DNA from: Prevotella sp.
GTDB taxonomy: Bacteria > Bacteroidota > Bacteroidia > Bacteroidales > Bacteroidaceae
Assembly (NCBI GenBank): GCA_017554105.1
Contig: JAFZIY010000019.1
Span: forward strand, 109,675-173,674
Reading direction: 5' to 3'
DNA: 64,000 bases
Shown here one piece after another: positions 17,531-59,661 of this stretch (positions are counted from its first letter, which is position 1; each line of letters starts with the position of its first letter). Under the pieces are notes generated by a model. The model was not told the origin of the DNA. It saw only the letters and a list, made by a program, of their open reading frames with translations, and ran no database searches. Both the position numbers and the translations under genes were made by a program.

Positions 17531-17632
17531 TGCAAAGTTAGTGCAAATCGAGCGAAATACAAAATAATTTATCTTTTTTTATTTCCGAGATGCAGCCAAA
17601 CCTCATGCCGCAAAGCATCATAAAGTTACTGT
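17531..17632. repeat. Promoter-containing dispersed repeat, copy 1
   Basis: About 100 bp, matching 22503-22602 with small indels: promoter, then TTTATCTTTTT, ATTTCCGAGATGCAGCC and ATAAAGTT. Both copies drive a minus-strand gene (tRNA-Arg here, metG there). Confidence 0.8.
17533..17563 (-). promoter_or_regulatory. Promoter of tRNA-Arg
   Basis: TTTG at 17563-17560 and TAACTTTG at 17540-17533 on the minus strand with a 19-base spacer. The spacer is identical, apart from one base, to that of the metG promoter at 22535-22505. Confidence 0.8.
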
Positions 17633-22502: not shown

Positions 22503-22602
22503 CGCAAAGTTAGTGTAAATCGAGCGAAATACAAAGGATTTATCTTTTTATTTCCGAGATGCAGCCTAACTTCATGGTGCGAAACGATATAAAGTTCTTG
22601 CA
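22503..22602. repeat. Promoter-containing dispersed repeat, copy 2
   Basis: Matches 17531-17632 as described there. Similarity runs from the -7 box to about 65 bases upstream of the -33 box, further than a promoter alone requires. Confidence 0.8.
22505..22535 (-). promoter_or_regulatory. Promoter of metG
   Basis: TTTG at 22535-22532 and TAACTTTG at 22512-22505 on the minus strand, 19 bases apart, 23 bases before the start codon. Confidence 0.8.
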
Positions 22603-53725: not shown

Positions 53726-55135
53726 ATGGAAAACAATCAAACAACTAGCGAAGCAAAAGGCTTCTACAAACTTTCGTGGTTGCAGAGAATCGGATTCGGT
53801 TCGGGCGACCTGGCGCAAAATCTTATTTTCCAAACGGTAGCGTGCTACTTGATGATTTACCTGACGACGGTATTAAAGATTAATCCGGCATTTGTCAGTG
53901 GACTTATTCTTGTGGTTCGTCTCATTGATTGTTTCTGGAGTCCTATTGTGGGACGCTATATAGACAATCGTAATCCTAAGTTGGGTAAGTATCGTGCATA
54001 CCTTCTCTATGGTGGTATTCCACTTACTGTGGCCGCATGCTTGTTGATGCTTCCTCAGGCTGCCACTTGGTCTATGACGATGAAGATTATCTATGCGTCA
54101 GTCAGCTACACCGTGCTGAGTATGATTTACTCAGTGGTTAACATACCTTACGGCTCGATTATGGCAAGTATGACTCGTGACAATGATGAGGTACTTATCC
54201 TCACTTCTACACGAATGGTATGTGCCAATATCGGTCAGATTATTGTTCAGGCCGGTTTCCCCATCGGACTTGCCATGTGTGTTCATACGGCAATCGACTG
54301 GAATCAGGCAACGTTCATGGCTATCGGTACGATTCCTGCTTTCATCATCCTGCCATCTCTGCCAATGTTGAAGAAATGGTTGGGTAAGAAGGGTCTCTAT
54401 TATACGCTTCTCTCAGTTGGTCTTGTTGGATTTGCCATTTTGTTCATCATTGGTAAGTTCTTCGATGTTGCAAGTTGCAATACAATTGTTCAGATTGCGA
54501 AGGTTATGACAGGTGTTGGACTCCTTGTTGGTTCTCTGATGTGGGCATTGGTTCCTGAAGTAATCACCGAGGCTGAGTATCGTACAGGAAACAGACCTGC
54601 TGCCACGGTAAACGCACTTGCCGGTGTTGCTTTCAAGGCTGGTTTCTCAATTGCCGGTTGGATTACTCCTCTGGTAATGGGATGGATTGGCTTTAACTTC
54701 GCCACTGAAGAGTCTGCATTGCCAACATCACCTGGTGCTTGGTTTACAGTTACGTGCGTTTTTGCACTCGTAGGTTTTGTTCTCTTGCTTCTTTGTTTCT
54801 TGGGCAGCAAGGAGAATATCACCACAACACCGGACAAGCCTGTTACATTTGGTGAAATGTGGCAGGAGTTCAAGGCAAATAAGTGCCTTCAGTTGGTTCT
54901 TAGTATCTTTGTTGTGGTATTCCTGGCATCATTCATCAGCGGACCGGTAAATGCATATTATCCGAAACTGGCAAATTATTCGACAATTGCACAGAACGCA
55001 ATTCTGGTGTTCACTTGCATCATTCCTGCCGTTCTCCTTGTTGTTGTAGGCTACCTGATTTACAAGTATCCTCTTACAGATGAGAAACTTGACGAAATAA
55101 ATAGAGAAATCGAAGCACGTAGCAATAATGAATAA
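53726..55135 (+). CDS. GPH-family sugar:cation symporter
   Basis: 469 residues with about 12 membrane segments. The N-terminus KLSWLQRIGFGSGDLAQNLIF and the loop with PIVGRYIDNRNPKLGKYRAYLLYG (acidic D-x-x-x-N then G-K-x-R) are typical of glycoside-pentoside-hexuronide symporters, as is the start of the second half (GTGNRPAATVNALAGVAFKAG-like). It probably takes xylo-oligosaccharides or xylose dimers across the inner membrane. It is first of three plus-strand genes; its last 8 bases overlap the xylanase start. The arrangement matches the xynD-xynA-xynB cluster reported in Prevotella bryantii. Confidence 0.92.
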   Translation: MENNQTTSEAKGFYKLSWLQRIGFGSGDLAQNLIFQTVACYLMIYLTTVLKINPAFVSGLILVVRLIDCFWSPIVGRYIDNRNPKLGKYRAYLLYGGIPLTVAACLLMLPQAATWSMTMKIIYASVSYTVLSMIYSVVNIPYGSIMASMTRDNDEVLILTSTRMVCANIGQIIVQAGFPIGLAMCVHTAIDWNQATFMAIGTIPAFIILPSLPMLKKWLGKKGLYYTLLSVGLVGFAILFIIGKFFDVASCNTIVQIAKVMTGVGLLVGSLMWALVPEVITEAEYRTGNRPAATVNALAGVAFKAGFSIAGWITPLVMGWIGFNFATEESALPTSPGAWFTVTCVFALVGFVLLLLCFLGSKENITTTPDKPVTFGEMWQEFKANKCLQLVLSIFVVVFLASFISGPVNAYYPKLANYSTIAQNAILVFTCIIPAVLLVVVGYLIYKYPLTDEKLDEINREIEARSNNE

Positions 55136-56237
55136 AAACATTAAGATACTGACACTCTGTCTGGTCATGATGCCATTGGCATCAATGGCTCAGCAGGGTT
55201 TGAAAGATGCCATGGGCAAGTATTGCCTGATTGGTGCGGCTGTAAATCAGTGGCAGAGTGACGGACAGGTACCTGAGGCTGATGTGGTGCTCGACAAGCA
55301 TTTCAACTGTGCCGTAGCAGAGAACTGCATGAAGCCAGAGACACTGGCTCCTGCAGAGGGCATATTCGACTTCCGCGTAGCCGATAAGTTCGTTAGTTAC
55401 TGTAAGCAGCATAACCTGAAGGTGATTGGTCACTGTCTGGTATGGCACTCACAAGCCCCCGACTGGTGGTTTACCAATGGCTATACAGCCATGCCGGCAT
55501 CTAAGGAAGTGCTGAAAGAACGACTCATCAAGCATATAAAGACCGTGGTAGGCCACTATAAAGGTCAGGTGCATGGCTGGGATGTGGTGAACGAGGCCAT
55601 CAACGATGACGGTACGTTCCGTAATTCTCCCTACTACAGACTGTTGGGTGAGGAGTTCATAGAGATTGCTTTCCGCACCGCCCATGAGGCAGACCCCGAT
55701 GCCGAACTCTACTATAACGACTATTCAATGGCTGGCGAGAAGAAGCGCGAGGCTGTATGCCGACTGGTGAAGAACCTGAAGGACAAGGGCTTGCGCATCG
55801 ACGGTGTGGGCATGCAGAGCCACAACGGACTCGATTATCCCAATCTGGAGGAATACGAGAAGAGTATCGATGCCTTTGCTGCCTGTGGCGTGAAGGTAAT
55901 GATTACCGAACTCGATATCAATGTACTGCCTAACCCACAGGGATTCGGTGGTGCTGCCGTGGAGCAGAACTTCGAGTTCCAGCAGAAGTACAACCCATAC
56001 GCCGCTGGTCTGCCTTCTGCCAAGCAGAAAGAGCTGGACAACCGTTGGCTTGAGTTGTTCAAGATTTATTACAAGCACCGCTCACAGATCAGCCGCATCA
56101 ACCTGTGGGGTATCAGTGACGGAGGTTCATGGCTCAATGGCTGGCCCATCAAGGGACGCACCAACTATCCGTTGCTCTTCGACCGCCAGTATCAGGCGAA
56201 ACCCGTTGTTAACGAAATCATCAAACTTTATAAATAA
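55128..56237 (+). CDS. Endo-1,4-beta-xylanase, GH10
   Basis: 369 residues with a signal peptide (MNKNIKILTLCLVMMPLASMAQ). GH10 motifs are HCLVWHSQAPDWWF, the acid/base glutamate in WDVVNEAIND (E156) and the nucleophile in MITELDINVLP (E261), with INLWGISDGGSWLN at the end. It cuts the xylan backbone; a single-domain enzyme, probably periplasmic or cell-associated. It starts inside the transporter gene (8-base overlap ATGAATAA), implying translational coupling. The GH43 gene begins 11 bases after the stop. Confidence 0.96.
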   Translation: MNKNIKILTLCLVMMPLASMAQQGLKDAMGKYCLIGAAVNQWQSDGQVPEADVVLDKHFNCAVAENCMKPETLAPAEGIFDFRVADKFVSYCKQHNLKVIGHCLVWHSQAPDWWFTNGYTAMPASKEVLKERLIKHIKTVVGHYKGQVHGWDVVNEAINDDGTFRNSPYYRLLGEEFIEIAFRTAHEADPDAELYYNDYSMAGEKKREAVCRLVKNLKDKGLRIDGVGMQSHNGLDYPNLEEYEKSIDAFAACGVKVMITELDINVLPNPQGFGGAAVEQNFEFQQKYNPYAAGLPSAKQKELDNRWLELFKIYYKHRSQISRINLWGISDGGSWLNGWPIKGRTNYPLLFDRQYQAKPVVNEIIKLYK

Positions 56238-56248
56238 ATCAGAAAACT

Positions 56249-57280
56249 ATGAAACCGCGTTATCTTTTCCCGAGTGACTATATGGCTGACCCCGCAGCCA
56301 ATGTGTTTAACGGACGCCTTTACGTCTATCCTTCGCACGACTGGGATGCCGGTGAGTGCTTCGACGACGATGGCGGTCACTTCCAGATGAGGGACTACCA
56401 TGTGCTGTCATGGGACGATGTTGAGAATGGCGAAGTTACCGACCATGGTGTAATCCTCGATGTCAAGGACGTTCCATGGGCTGAGAAGCAGATGTGGGAC
56501 AATGATGTCGTTGAGAAGGACGGCAAGTACTACCTCATCTTCTCTGCCAAGGAGTATAGCGGCGTGTTCCGACTGGGCGTGGCCGTTGCCGATAAGCCCG
56601 AGGGCCCGTTTATCCCTGAGAAGTTCCCTATCCGTGGATCGTTCTCCATTGACCCTTGTATGTTCAAGGACGATGATGGTCAGATCTACTGCTACTTCGG
56701 TGGACTCTGGGGCGGACAGTTACAGTGGGGCCGCACGCTCTACCACGGTTTTGAGGCTATCCCCGGCAAGTACGGCGATGATAATGGTCTCATCGACCTT
56801 GGTCCTGCACCCGACCACAAGACACAACTCTTCGCTAAGCCCGATGCACCCGCACTGCCCAGCAATGTGGTACGCATGACCGACGACGTGAAGCAGTTCG
56901 CAGAGGCTCCACGTCCAGTCATCATTCTCGACAAGGATGGACAGCCGCTGAAGGCCGGTGACCCACATCGTTTCTTCGAAGCATCATGGATGCATAAGTA
57001 CAACGGAAAGTACTACTTCTCTTACTCTACTGGTGACAGTCACTTCCTGTGCTATGCCACGGGTGACAACCCATACGGACCGTTCACCTATCAGGGTGTT
57101 ATCCTTGACCCTGTTGTTGGTTGGACAACCCACCACAGCATCGTTCAGTACAAGGGACAGTGGTATCTCTTCTATCATGACTGTTTTCCTTCTAATGACG
57201 TTACCCATCTTCGCTCACTGAAGGTACAGCGTCTCTTCTACAACGAGGACGGAACCATTCAGAAGGTGATAAATGAATGA
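56249..57280 (+). CDS. GH43 beta-xylosidase/arabinofuranosidase
   Basis: 343 residues without a signal peptide, so cytoplasmic. It is a five-bladed propeller enzyme: catalytic base Asp in SDYMADPAANVFNGRLYVYPSHD, pKa-modulating Asp in GSFSIDPCMFKDDDGQIYCYFG, and acid Glu in PHRFFEASWMHKYNGKYYFSYS. It probably releases xylose or arabinose from short oligosaccharides delivered by the symporter, like XynB of P. bryantii. No C-terminal GH43 beta-sandwich is present. It is last in the transporter-xylanase operon, which ends at the hairpin at 57330-57366. Confidence 0.93.
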   Translation: MKPRYLFPSDYMADPAANVFNGRLYVYPSHDWDAGECFDDDGGHFQMRDYHVLSWDDVENGEVTDHGVILDVKDVPWAEKQMWDNDVVEKDGKYYLIFSAKEYSGVFRLGVAVADKPEGPFIPEKFPIRGSFSIDPCMFKDDDGQIYCYFGGLWGGQLQWGRTLYHGFEAIPGKYGDDNGLIDLGPAPDHKTQLFAKPDAPALPSNVVRMTDDVKQFAEAPRPVIILDKDGQPLKAGDPHRFFEASWMHKYNGKYYFSYSTGDSHFLCYATGDNPYGPFTYQGVILDPVVGWTTHHSIVQYKGQWYLFYHDCFPSNDVTHLRSLKVQRLFYNEDGTIQKVINE

Positions 57281-57422: not shown

Positions 57423-57647
57423 TTATTCTTGTTCATTCTGAATCTTAGTGGAGTAGGGGGTAGGTCTTACGCCGTACATAAGACGCACGCGTCCTGGGTC
57501 ACTGTCGATGGGTTTTACTTTCTCCTCATTCCCTTTTCCATTTTCATCATTCTCAAGAGACTTCGCCGACTTGCATGCGCCAAGTCCGAGCATTGCTATT
57601 ATGCCCATGCATACCATAGTGGTGATTTTCAGCAGCCAATGTCTCAT
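57423..57647 (-). CDS. Small lipoprotein E of the radical SAM operon
   Basis: 74 residues from ATG 57647, which overlaps the radical SAM stop codon as ATGA. A longer frame to 57668 would add seven residues and is less likely. The lipoprotein signal ends MLGLGAC (cysteine 25). A charged linker (K/E/N/D) leads to LMYGVRPTPYST, which carries Y-G-x5-Y (Y58 to Y65) like the four upstream lipoproteins, although the rest is unrelated. It is the last gene of the operon. By position and motif it is a candidate fifth substrate of the enzyme; this is inference. Confidence 0.8.
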   Translation of the reverse strand: MRHWLLKITTMVCMGIIAMLGLGACKSAKSLENDENGKGNEEKVKPIDSDPGRVRLMYGVRPTPYSTKIQNEQE

Positions 57648-58744
57648 AACAGTTTCTTCAGATGACATGTAATCAGTTTTCCTTCAGCATCGCGCAGGTG
57701 CATTGAGTTACCCTTGCAATAGCGGAAATGCTTGCAGTCGGCACATTCGTCCTTGTGCATCCATGAGCGGTCGCGATATGGCTGGTACTTGTTTTCCCAC
57801 ACTGTGAGGAAGTCGTCCTCATAGATGTTGCCCTGCGCATAGTCTGCCCTGATGCTCGCACAGGCAGCAATGTCACCGTTAGCCATTACCGAACCCACAC
57901 TGATTCCTGCCTGACAACCCAGCAGAGAGTCGCGCACCTCTCCCTCGTAGTTTCCGAGGAATCCCTCGCATCCGTATGCCGCTTTTATCACTCCTTCCTT
58001 CCTCGTCTTCTTGATGAAGTCCAACATCCCTTTGTATTGCTCGTTCGAGAGTTGCAGCATAGGGTCTTTTGCAGCCCTTCCCACGGGGAAGATGGAGAAC
58101 ATACGCCAGTGTTTCACATCTTTGCCTATTAAGAAATCGCGTATCTCAGCCAGTTTCGGGTATGTGCGTTGGTTGACGCAGGTCACCACATCGAACACAA
58201 GCCCCACTTTGTCGCGCATCTCCACAAGGTAGTCGATTGCCTCGCTGACACGTTGGAAACTATCTTTGTGCCCGCGCATCCAGTTGTGGTCGTCCTCCAG
58301 TCCATCGATGCTGACGGTTATCGAGTGAAGTCCCGCACGTCTCAGTGCTAACAGTTTCTCACGTGTTAGCAGCAGTCCGTTGCTCACCATGCCCCAAGGG
58401 AACCCACGTTCGTAGATTCCTTTGCCGCACAATTCTATGTCCTCACGCACCAGAGGCTCGCCTCCAGTCACGATGACGAACACCTTGTGAGGGTCCATTT
58501 TCTCCTTTATGCTGTCGAGAACGCGGAAGAAGTCCTCCCGAGGCATGTCTTTTGTGTTGGTTATCTGGCGGCAGTCGCTGCCACAATGCCTGCAATGCAC
58601 ATTACATCTCAGTGTGCATTCCCAAAAAAGCTGCGTCAACTGATGTTCACGCAAATAGTTGTTCTGCACCACTCGTGCCATTTCCAATGCGAGGCGGTGG
58701 CGCATGTCCAGACGGTAGTCGTTAGCGTTTGCTGTCTTTTCCAT
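57644..58744 (-). CDS. Radical SAM/SPASM enzyme of an rSAM-lipoprotein system
   Basis: 366 residues from ATG 58744; an in-frame TTG two codons upstream is an alternative. The radical SAM cluster is CNVHCRHC (C47, C51, C54), followed by TGGEPLVREDI (GGE motif) and TVSIDGLEDDHNWMRG. The C-terminal SPASM domain has cysteines in YGCEGFLGNY, LLGCQAGISVGSVMANGDIAACASI and the terminal DECADCKHFRYCKGN ... TCHLKK, enough for auxiliary Fe-S clusters as in peptide-modifying enzymes. It resembles what I recall as TIGR04133 (rSAM/lipoprotein system). The start lies inside lipoprotein gene D (23-base overlap). The probable role is modification of the adjacent small lipoproteins; the chemistry is unknown. 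Confidence 0.92.
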   Translation of the reverse strand: MEKTANANDYRLDMRHRLALEMARVVQNNYLREHQLTQLFWECTLRCNVHCRHCGSDCRQITNTKDMPREDFFRVLDSIKEKMDPHKVFVIVTGGEPLVREDIELCGKGIYERGFPWGMVSNGLLLTREKLLALRRAGLHSITVSIDGLEDDHNWMRGHKDSFQRVSEAIDYLVEMRDKVGLVFDVVTCVNQRTYPKLAEIRDFLIGKDVKHWRMFSIFPVGRAAKDPMLQLSNEQYKGMLDFIKKTRKEGVIKAAYGCEGFLGNYEGEVRDSLLGCQAGISVGSVMANGDIAACASIRADYAQGNIYEDDFLTVWENKYQPYRDRSWMHKDECADCKHFRYCKGNSMHLRDAEGKLITCHLKKLL

Positions 58745-58937
58745 TGTCAATGGTTGCGTCAGGACTTGTCATATTCTCTCCGATGGAGTCGTTATGCTCG
58801 ATGTAATCGGTGTTTGGCGTGCCATATTCCAATGGTTGTGGCAAGACCCTTCTGAACAGGTTGCAACTGCTGAAGCCCAGAGAAATAAGCACTGCCGATG
58901 CCAGCGCTACACCTACCTTTATTATTCCTTTTTTCAT
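58722..58937 (-). CDS. Small lipoprotein D of the radical SAM operon
   Basis: 71 residues. N-terminus MKKGIIKVGVALASAVLISLGFSSC (lipidated cysteine 25), then a short basic linker and LEYGTPNTDYIEHND, with Y38-G39 and Y45. The tail is D/S/T/N-rich and looks unstructured. It overlaps gene C by 4 bases (ATGA), and its end overlaps the radical SAM gene by 23 bases. It has the most diverged core (YGTPNTDY) of the four tandem copies. It corresponds, as I recall, to the TIGR04134 'lipoprotein with rSAM' type. Confidence 0.88.
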   Translation of the reverse strand: MKKGIIKVGVALASAVLISLGFSSCNLFRRVLPQPLEYGTPNTDYIEHNDSIGENMTSPDATIDNGKDSKR

Positions 58938-59155
58938 TTCTGGGTCTTTATCGTTGTAGAATCAATAACTTCGGGCTCCTCCACGTCAGGCTGGTCGAGT
59001 GAATCGACAAACTCTGATGGTGGTGGTCCATAAACATCGATAATCTCATTATTGTTAAAGGCCTTTTTACCGCACGATGTTATTCCCAGTGCCAAAAGCA
59101 CTGAGGAACCGATAGCGCCAAAAGCCCACTTCTTCAATCTATTTGTTTTTTTCAT
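58934..59155 (-). CDS. Small lipoprotein C of the radical SAM operon
   Basis: 73 residues. Signal MKKTNRLKKWAFGAIGSSVL then LALGITSC (cysteine 28). Core IIDVYGPPPSEFVDSL (Y42, G43, F49). The tail is acidic with proline and threonine. ATGA overlaps on both sides (with B at 59152-59155 and D at 58934-58937). The signal region is closest to that of lipoprotein A (RKWxxGxIGSSVL). It is the only tandem copy with phenylalanine at the second aromatic position. Confidence 0.88.
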   Translation of the reverse strand: MKKTNRLKKWAFGAIGSSVLLALGITSCGKKAFNNNEIIDVYGPPPSEFVDSLDQPDVEEPEVIDSTTIKTQK

Positions 59156-59358
59156 TTCTGTTTGCTTTGATTGTTTCCGCTGTCGGCAGGAGCCGGTGTT
59201 GTCGCCTGCACTTCTGCTGAGTCAGGTTTCACATAGTACTCCATTGGCGGCGGACCATATACCTTGGGCTGTGAAAGCGGACTGCAGCTTCCGAACCCCA
59301 TAGCCAGCAACACTGACGAAGTCAGCGCTCCTAATGCTTTCATTAATCCCTTTTTCAT
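59152..59358 (-). CDS. Small lipoprotein B of the radical SAM operon
   Basis: 68 residues. Signal MKKGLMKALGALTSSVLLAM then GFGSC (cysteine 25). Core KVYGPPPMEYYVKPDSAE (Y34, G35, Y41, Y42). The linker between the lipidated cysteine and the core is the shortest of the set (8 residues). The tail is A/T/P/S/Q-rich. ATGA overlaps with A and C. The tandem overlaps and shared signal sequence indicate origin by repeated duplication. Confidence 0.88.
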   Translation of the reverse strand: MKKGLMKALGALTSSVLLAMGFGSCSPLSQPKVYGPPPMEYYVKPDSAEVQATTPAPADSGNNQSKQK

Positions 59359-59567
59359 TTCTTGTCTTTTTCAGGTAATTGTACAACTGTATCAGGCACT
59401 TCTACTTGTTGGTTGTTAAGAGTGTCACTGTAAAACTCTGGCGGCGGACCATATACACACTCTATGTTCTCATGCCTGATGCCGTTTCCAGAGCATGCGG
59501 TAAATCCCAGTGCTGCAAGCACCGATGAACCGATAACACCTAAAGTCCATTTTCTTAGTCTGCCCAT
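59355..59567 (-). CDS. Small lipoprotein A, first gene of the radical SAM operon
   Basis: 70 residues. Signal MGRLRKWTLGVIGSSVLAAL then GFTAC (cysteine 25). Core ECVYGPPPEFYSDTL (Y39, G40, F45, Y46), preceded by an extra cysteine (C37) two residues before the tyrosine. The tail is V/E/Q/D-rich with DKK at the end. It is the promoter-proximal gene; the stop codon overlaps the start of B as ATGA. Confidence 0.88.
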   Translation of the reverse strand: MGRLRKWTLGVIGSSVLAALGFTACSGNGIRHENIECVYGPPPEFYSDTLNNQQVEVPDTVVQLPEKDKK

Positions 59568-59629
59568 AGTGTTTTTGTTTAGTGTTTGGTGTGTCGAAAT
59601 TTAAACGTGCAAAACCGTTTATGTCTCTG

Positions 59630-59661
59630 CAAAGATATGATAAAACGCTGAAACCACCAAA
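59630..59661 (-). promoter_or_regulatory. Promoter of the radical SAM-lipoprotein operon
   Basis: TTTG at 59661-59658 and TATCTTTG at 59637-59630 on the minus strand, 20 bases apart. The leader to lipoprotein A is about 55 nt. Confidence 0.78.

Follow-up and report, generated by a model that had tools for sequence, protein, structure and literature searches.

A radical SAM/SPASM operon of Prevotella sp. encoding five small lipoproteins with a shared Tyr-Gly-Pro motif: a possible relative of the peptide spliceases

The operon and its products

We analysed a 64,000-nucleotide stretch of a Prevotella sp. genome (hereafter the window; assembly GCA_017554105.1, contig JAFZIY010000019.1, positions 109,675 to 173,674), in which an operon at 57423..59661 codes for five small lipoproteins and a radical S-adenosylmethionine (SAM)/SPASM enzyme. 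The minus strand carries the entire operon, namely a promoter, the lipoprotein genes lp1 to lp4, the enzyme gene, which belongs to the TIGR04133 family, a fifth lipoprotein gene (lp5) and a shared terminator. Every part named in the original prediction, which had been made from the sequence without database searches, is thus present. The arrangement goes beyond chance, as the enzyme reaches 552 bits on the TIGR04133 profile and the gene pairing is repeated in related loci.

The promoter is a match to the Bacteroides-type pattern, TTTG-N20-TATCTTTG (59630..59661, minus strand). This pattern occurs at nine sites in the 64-kb window vs 0.65 expected by chance; a sigma-70-type scan of the window gave five sites vs 4.6 in shuffled sequences. 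Signal sequences and lipoboxes were called by our own rules applied to the sequence. The lipoproteins, all encoded on the minus strand, are lp1 (59355..59567; 70 residues, lipobox FTAC), lp2 (59152..59358; 68 residues, FGSC), lp3 (58934..59155; 73 residues, ITSC), lp4 (58722..58937; 71 residues, FSSC) and lp5 (57423..57647; 74 residues, LGAC). ATGA overlaps link lp1 to lp2, lp2 to lp3, lp3 to lp4 and the enzyme gene to lp5, in line with the coupling proposed at first; the lp4 and enzyme genes overlap by 23 nucleotides rather than by ATGA, and the terminator lies just outside 57423..59661. It is a hairpin-forming inverted repeat with perfect 16-nucleotide arms (57330-57345/57351-57366) and A/T-run flanks, and since it stands between the operon and a converging gene, it could serve both directions.

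The enzyme gene (57644..58744, minus strand, ATG at 58744) codes for 366 residues. The product scores 552.2 bits on TIGR04133 (curated cut-off 425; E 4e-166), so the family assignment of the original prediction stands. It contains the Pfam domains Radical_SAM and SPASM and appears by eye to be devoid of a signal sequence. C47, C51 and C54 form the radical SAM cluster motif CNVHCRHC, and alignments show other conserved cysteines at positions 259, 277, 295, 334, 337, 343 and 360. The antiviral protein viperin was considered as an alternative identity and rejected: the match to viperin profiles of PADLOC (E 1e-18) is far weaker than that to TIGR04133 (4e-166), and a SPASM domain is present. The enzyme matches 18 distinct PDB sequences at E<=0.001, the best being cytosylglucuronate decarboxylase (5.6e-16), and none of the 18 bears the name of a splicease. 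TIGR04133 is rare across the phylum, with three of 392 genomes in an even draw. The same Prevotella genome nevertheless harbours a second TIGR04133 locus (L003:4800-6390, on contig 11), whose lipoprotein of 136 residues is charged, looks helix-rich and carries MYGGPN.

NCBIfam pairs TIGR04133 by name with the lipoprotein family TIGR04134, a pairing that annotation also shows in Treponema and in Parabacteroides, where Parabacteroides distasonis has the enzyme WP_036633130.1 and the lipoprotein WP_005853865.1; the names specify neither a product nor a site. While the window enzyme is a full member of its family, the membership expected for the lipoproteins was not borne out. On TIGR04134, lp1, lp2 and lp4 score 13.5, 21.6 and 23.5 bits, below the cut-off of 39.8; lp3 has no TIGR04134 match and lp5 no NCBIfam match at all at E<=1.

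A Tyr-Gly-Pro motif in enzyme-adjacent lipoproteins

All five lipoproteins contain an X-Y-G-x-(x)-P motif, which the original prediction had overlooked and which marks the likely modification site; their linkers and tails differ. From the sequence and the motif statistics below, the putative sites (minus strand) are V-YGPPP-EFY in lp1 (59430..59456), V-YGPPP-MEYY in lp2 (59233..59262), V-YGPPP-SEF in lp3 (59009..59035), E-YGTP-NTDY in lp4 (58803..58829) and M-YGVRP-TPY in lp5 (57453..57479). Between the window genome (G000) and its relative G016, 39 of 46 motif positions are identical, as are 79 of 123 in the signals, 44 of 82 in the linkers and 40 of 126 in the tails; for two of the five pairs (lp2 and lp3) the pairing was itself based on the motif, so the motif value is inflated.

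We collected 70 loci by enzyme similarity, mostly from metagenome-assembled genomes: the window, 14 loci from the genome sample described below (including the second locus of the Prevotella genome), 52 of 80 searched relatives and three plasmid records. The 52 are L033-L083 and L086; L084 (a fragment), L085 and L087-L112 (other families, L089 being a partial relative) were excluded. In the 64 loci parsed for lipobox-containing open reading frames (ORFs), six clostridial loci being left out, YGx0-3P is present in 71 of 93 enzyme-adjacent lipobox ORFs vs 5 of 99 control lipobox ORFs on the same DNA. Motif density is 10.8 per 1000 residues in the adjacent ORFs (93 in 8,611) vs 0.50 in long ORFs (51 in 102,637). 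Under a less strict signal rule, the motif is present in 90 of 310 adjacent signal ORFs vs 34 of 1,347 controls, and 62 of the 70 loci have at least one such adjacent ORF. Some of the 90 are doubtful, e.g. two in L078 and one in L033 that starts inside the enzyme gene. In L062, L065 and L075, the motif is visible by eye in a protein that the signal rule missed. In L013 (contig 39 of genome G035), the TIGR04133 gene is interrupted by a stop and its surroundings yielded no substrate gene, which may reflect a joint loss of enzyme and substrate.

The motif proteins have little else in common. We aligned 77 of the 90 (13 were dropped, namely five near-copies in L009 and otherwise doubtful or extra copies) and built from them the substrate profile A6. 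Met1 and the Tyr are the only invariant columns, the lipobox Cys, the Gly and one Pro reach at least 90%, and mean column identity is 8%. A CarboxypepD_reg-like Pfam domain is found in 23 of the 77 proteins, the others having short tails or looking helix-rich by eye, and 31 match TIGR04134 at E<=0.001. Many exceed 120 residues, and many others have short tails after the motif. Over 122 sites, the residues V, E, M, L, K and C predominate at X; Pro occupies position +3 in 78% of the sites, and a single ORF may repeat the site up to five times.

Three motif proteins encoded 3' of the enzyme gene (L057:5107-5652, L062:5085-5579 and L063:5096-5755) have, by our reading, a secretion-type signal without a lipobox and two YG sites each. 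In the clostridial relative L075, upstream of 3221, a YGVP site lies just before a hydrophobic helix in a protein that is not a lipoprotein.

The motif might be a docking or activity signal, with the enzyme making a small molecule or modifying another part of the protein and the lipoproteins acting as carriers or regulators. The CarboxypepD_reg-like domains fit such a role, and heme-pathway enzymes (NirJ2, AhbD) provide some of the best profile matches after TIGR04133. However, Y-G-P is the sole conserved feature of the 77 substrates besides the start and the lipobox, the site is repeated within single ORFs, and no other Pfam family occurs in more than three of 67 neighbouring proteins examined (picked from 179 candidate ORFs). 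We therefore consider this reading quite improbable.

We then determined how substrate and enzyme are distributed over 60 genomes, i.e. the Prevotella genome and 59 relatives. TIGR04133 is above cut-off in 14 genomes, one of which is G035 with its internal stop; G053 has a broken or contig-end copy below cut-off. Profile A6 (E<=1e-5) matches in 14 genomes, namely 13 of the 14 over the enzyme cut-off and G053. If G053 is counted as having the enzyme, 14 genomes have both, one has the enzyme only, none the substrate only and 45 neither (Fisher p ~9e-13); with enzymes over cut-off only, the numbers are 13, 1, 1 and 45 (p ~4e-11). Because 12 of the 14 substrate-positive genomes contributed rows to A6, the profile is biased towards matches in the positive genomes and not in the 45 negative ones. 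All 24 A6 matches are located 0-688 bases from an enzyme gene or fragment. Strong matches (E<1e-6) to the small-lipoprotein profile A2 are confined to G000, G016, G057, G058 and G023.

Several additional substrate candidates were discarded. Weak A2 matches (E>=1e-4) in G009 and G012 cover signal-peptide positions only, and that in G027 is a YGVPPTQY string within a long frame that is not a lipoprotein. Neither contig 20 of the Prevotella genome (weak match, E 2.8e-5) nor L145 has a lipobox or motif ORF at the place concerned.

These data bear on the most ordinary explanation, in which common lipoprotein genes happen to lie next to an unrelated radical SAM enzyme and the motif is a general feature of envelope lipoproteins. 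CarboxypepD_reg lipoproteins are indeed common in Bacteroidota. In contrast, the motif is scarce in control lipobox ORFs and abundant in adjacent ones, all A6 matches lie beside the enzyme, and the motif recurs in the clostridial loci L078-L081. The original prediction would have been refuted by homologous lipoprotein sets occurring generally without the enzyme; none of the 45 genomes devoid of enzyme and fragment has an A6 match at E<=1e-5. This explanation is disfavoured and extremely unlikely.

Enzyme and motif also co-vary. In the CYG variant, the site directly follows the lipidated Cys. This variant tracks the enzyme tree, with five changes vs a mean of 13.5 in shuffled data and none of 500 shuffles as low, over 63 labelled rows (L062 and L065 were labelled manually). 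Thus, enrichment of the motif, adjacency, co-occurrence and co-variation agree with the initial proposal that the enzyme acts on the lipoproteins. Its action on the Y-G-x-P motif is well supported, and we estimate that the site is very probably modified.

Kinship with spliceases and the chemistry at the site

The closest functional parallel is provided by the PlpX/PlpXY spliceases, known from cyanobacteria, which excise tyramine at X-Tyr-Gly (PMC11002830, PMC10373908). The similarities are the X-Y-G-x-P sites, the occurrence of several sites per precursor and a neighbouring position in the enzyme tree. The substrates differ, with Nif11/NHLP (nitrile hydratase leader peptide) leaders in the splicease systems and lipoproteins or other secreted proteins here. 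PlpX itself, which we take to be a member of TIGR04103, is given as IPR026482 in a review. A Nostoc plasmid cluster annotated as TIGR04103 has a Nif11 precursor ending in IALYGLPPELF, close to the VYGPPPEFY of lp1. According to PMC10533398, the tested splice tags of PlpX contain LYGLPI, its natural sites are MYG and LYG, GYG variants were also tested, and PlpXY works without a leader.

In a tree of 49 proteins, TIGR04133, its clostridial kin, the TIGR04103/GDL-type enzymes and two related proteins share one side of a branch vs 22 others. This grouping has an ultrafast bootstrap value of 96 and a Shimodaira-Hasegawa-like approximate likelihood ratio test (SH-aLRT) value of 82; the same branch has an SH-aLRT of 91 in a quick 57-row tree. 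The 57 rows were picked from 110 proteins, and the 49-row tree leaves out PqqE and L128 because of their long branches, as well as six TIGR04133 rows. TIGR04053, whose profile matches all 14 A1 members, was considered as close kin, but a grouping of the TIGR04133 and clostridial rows with the two TIGR04053-like rows L117 and L091 was rejected (approximately unbiased test, p 2e-6). The loop before the first auxiliary Cys points in the same direction as the tree, being GYYGPYE in the Nostoc TIGR04103 enzyme and GFLGNYE in the window enzyme. The pattern, drawn up after the alignment had been seen, is found in 58 of 64 TIGR04133, six of six clostridial and six of seven TIGR04103/GDL-type proteins, and in one of 33 others (L089, itself a TIGR04133 relative).

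We regard as the best explanation a minimal, leader-independent, splicease-related system that modifies the Y-G site of lipoproteins, and we consider it somewhat more likely than not. The most likely chemistry would resemble that of PlpX: tyramine would be excised from the Tyr of X-Tyr-Gly, with a loss of C8H9NO (~135 Da), and residue X would become an alpha-keto-beta-amino (ketoamide) residue. If the site is modified, the kinship and the site itself make tyramine excision the probable reaction. Leader independence is shown for PlpXY and may be extended by analogy to the TIGR04133 system.

A number of observations weigh against this explanation. In L034, L039, L052 and L059, the enzyme is apparently intact and no motif ORF is visible. 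Support for the kinship with spliceases comes from the tree and one loop, and only one row in the tree carries a TIGR04103 annotation. In the alignment, identity to the Nostoc TIGR04103 enzyme is 27%, and that to a Thermus TIGR04053 protein is 29%; tblastn reverses this order, with 29.3% and 119 bits for Nostoc vs 27.2% and 99 bits for Thermus. On the window enzyme, TIGR04103 scores 115 bits (cut-off 725) and trails NirJ2 (122) and TIGR04053 (117.7). The four clostridial kin tested, which score 265-323 bits on TIGR04133 and thus fall below its cut-off, score higher on heme and other profiles (AhbD 140.7-177.7) than on TIGR04103. The auxiliary-cluster cysteines differ, as the last Cys of the CX2CX5CX3C of the Nostoc enzyme is absent and Cys259 is extra. 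X is often E, K or C, and PlpX sites have M or L. A second aromatic residue at +5..+9, found in 97 of the 122 sites (no background was computed), is left unexplained by splicing. Finally, no partner resembling PlpY, which would be of the RiPP (ribosomally synthesized and post-translationally modified peptide) recognition element type, was seen on the downstream side: 18 small downstream ORFs in 16 of 45 loci are not alike bar one substrate pair, and the upstream side was not searched in the same manner.

Some of these observations would suit another radical reaction at the same Y-G-x-P-x-x-[x]-[YF] site, without excision. The Tyr might form a cyclophane or ether crosslink with an adjacent residue or with the second aromatic, which lies about seven residues further along, or the C-alpha of the Gly might be altered. 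Besides the recurrent second aromatic, the near-equal conservation of Gly, Pro and Tyr, the weak matches of the enzyme to the crosslinking SPASM profiles DynA, PapB and PqqE, and the cysteine layout unlike that of the Nostoc enzyme speak for it. Against it, the tree and the loop signature place the enzyme on the TIGR04103 side, and X-Y-G-x-P is a splicease site. We consider such a reaction less likely than the splicease-related system.

The GDL-motif/DUF1843 system (TIGR03913) is a further relative. Its maturases share 47-48% identity with the Nostoc TIGR04103 enzyme and are found on the TIGR04103 side, outside the TIGR04133 branch; its peptides are small and have no signal sequence. Four of eight such peptides have an N-terminal [LP]-Y-G site and the other four MYM, MYA or LYA; peptides with the Tyr site are found at L118:585-1285, L121:2144-2857 and L124:1287-1742. 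Given these sites and the maturase identity, the DUF1843/GDL peptides may be splicease substrates as well.

Export, location and neighbouring genes

In the mechanism that we propose, each of the five lipoproteins would be made with a signal peptidase II (SPII)-type signal and a single X-Tyr-Gly-x-(x)-Pro site. The enzyme of the TIGR04133 family would recognize this short site across otherwise unrelated scaffolds, on the unfolded chain and in the cytosol, as it lacks a discernible signal sequence. Modification would precede Sec export, diacylglyceryl transfer and SPII cleavage, and would yield envelope lipoproteins that carry the modification and probably face the periplasm. The occurrence, chemistry, timing and location of the modification are all inferred.

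The original prediction held that modification of a lipidated, exported substrate would be unusual, yet examples exist among multinuclear non-heme iron-dependent oxidative enzymes (MNIOs). The DAG-RiPPs of Bacteroidota (DybA/NedA; PMC12636315) resemble the present system in having a cytosolic RiPP-type enzyme, a short motif, lipobox precursors, tolerance of scaffolds and minimal loci; variants exported through signal peptidase I also exist. DybA and NedA show that a RiPP enzyme can beat export in the race for a lipoprotein precursor. The enzymes there are oxygen-using iron enzymes acting on Cys motifs, whereas the present system has a radical SAM enzyme, and its Y-G site occupies different positions in the mature chain; the main text of that paper contains 'radical SAM' or 'rSAM' zero times. 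The window likewise has a lipobox precursor, read by rule, beside a RiPP-type enzyme and a scaffold-tolerant motif.

An outer-membrane layer of decorated lipoproteins had also been envisaged. The surface-export signal of Bacteroides requires an acidic residue at +2..+6 (PMC6222051). Such a residue is absent from 44 of 71 mature lipoproteins, and from all five of the window, so a periplasmic face is more likely. The clostridial kin, with their VYGPP lipoproteins (L078-L081), suggest that the system can do without an outer membrane.

No transporter or protease family recurs among the 67 neighbouring proteins, in agreement with the initial observation that the operon has no dedicated one; a nearby transporter or leader protease, as in classical leader-cleaved RiPP clusters, was thus not found in this sample. 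A protease encoded elsewhere might free a small modified peptide after export, which would be compatible with a splicease-related system. The short tails of many substrates would suit such a precursor role, and RiPP proteases can be encoded at a distance (PMC11117315). On the other hand, no protease family occurs in more than two of the 67 neighbours, and the substrates beyond 120 residues and those with a CarboxypepD_reg-like domain are poor candidates for small precursors. We regard release of a peptide as unlikely.

The NCBI-catalogued pairing, the spliceases and the MNIO-modified lipoproteins are already known. The PMC literature searched has no mention of TIGR04133, TIGR04134 or 'radical SAM-associated putative lipoprotein'. 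Relative to that literature, the YGxP site across diverse scaffolds, the kinship with spliceases and the reach to Clostridia are new, although Scott et al. 2022 may contain part of this. Our broadest proposal, which is tentative, is that Bacteroidales from animal guts and rumens, and some Clostridia of a sister clade, have families of envelope lipoproteins in which a radical SAM splicease, acting alone with neither leader nor partner, splices the backbone so that electrophilic ketoamides are displayed. If true, lipid-anchored proteins in the envelope of anaerobes would join the targets of backbone splicing, which would gain a role beyond secreted peptide natural products, and the sharing of one short motif by otherwise unrelated small lipoproteins would be accounted for. 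The ketoamide lipoproteins could then be membrane-tethered protease inhibitors or covalent anchors acting through the electrophilic ketone, which is speculation. If excision is confirmed, the system would also provide a 366-residue splicease that needs no partner and tolerates many scaffolds, useful for installing reactive ketones in proteins. The pairing known by name only would become a concrete question, that of a ~135 Da loss at Tyr-Gly.

No recurring third gene was seen, DUF6057 and PD40 being found in three of the 67 neighbours each. The DUF6057 neighbours probably belong to L049, L052 and L073, a guess made because the gene order is similar; no motif ORF is visible in L052, as noted above. 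On plasmid pTS1 of Treponema saccharophilum (L114:3806-4450), an annotated Mpi-type DNA invertase adjoins the lipoprotein/TIGR04133 pair. Plasmid mobility was considered and set aside: of the three plasmid records, two are Bacteroidales 'plasmids' (98 and 422 kb) that share one isolate code and are perhaps mis-assembled chromosome.

In the window itself, the plus-strand genes that converge on the operon (53726-57280) form a set that resembles, by eye, a sugar symporter, a glycoside hydrolase family 10 (GH10)-type xylanase and a GH43-type enzyme. Two near-identical Bacteroides-type promoters are found 5 kb apart on the minus strand, at 17533-17563 and 22505-22535, which suggests a duplicated upstream region.

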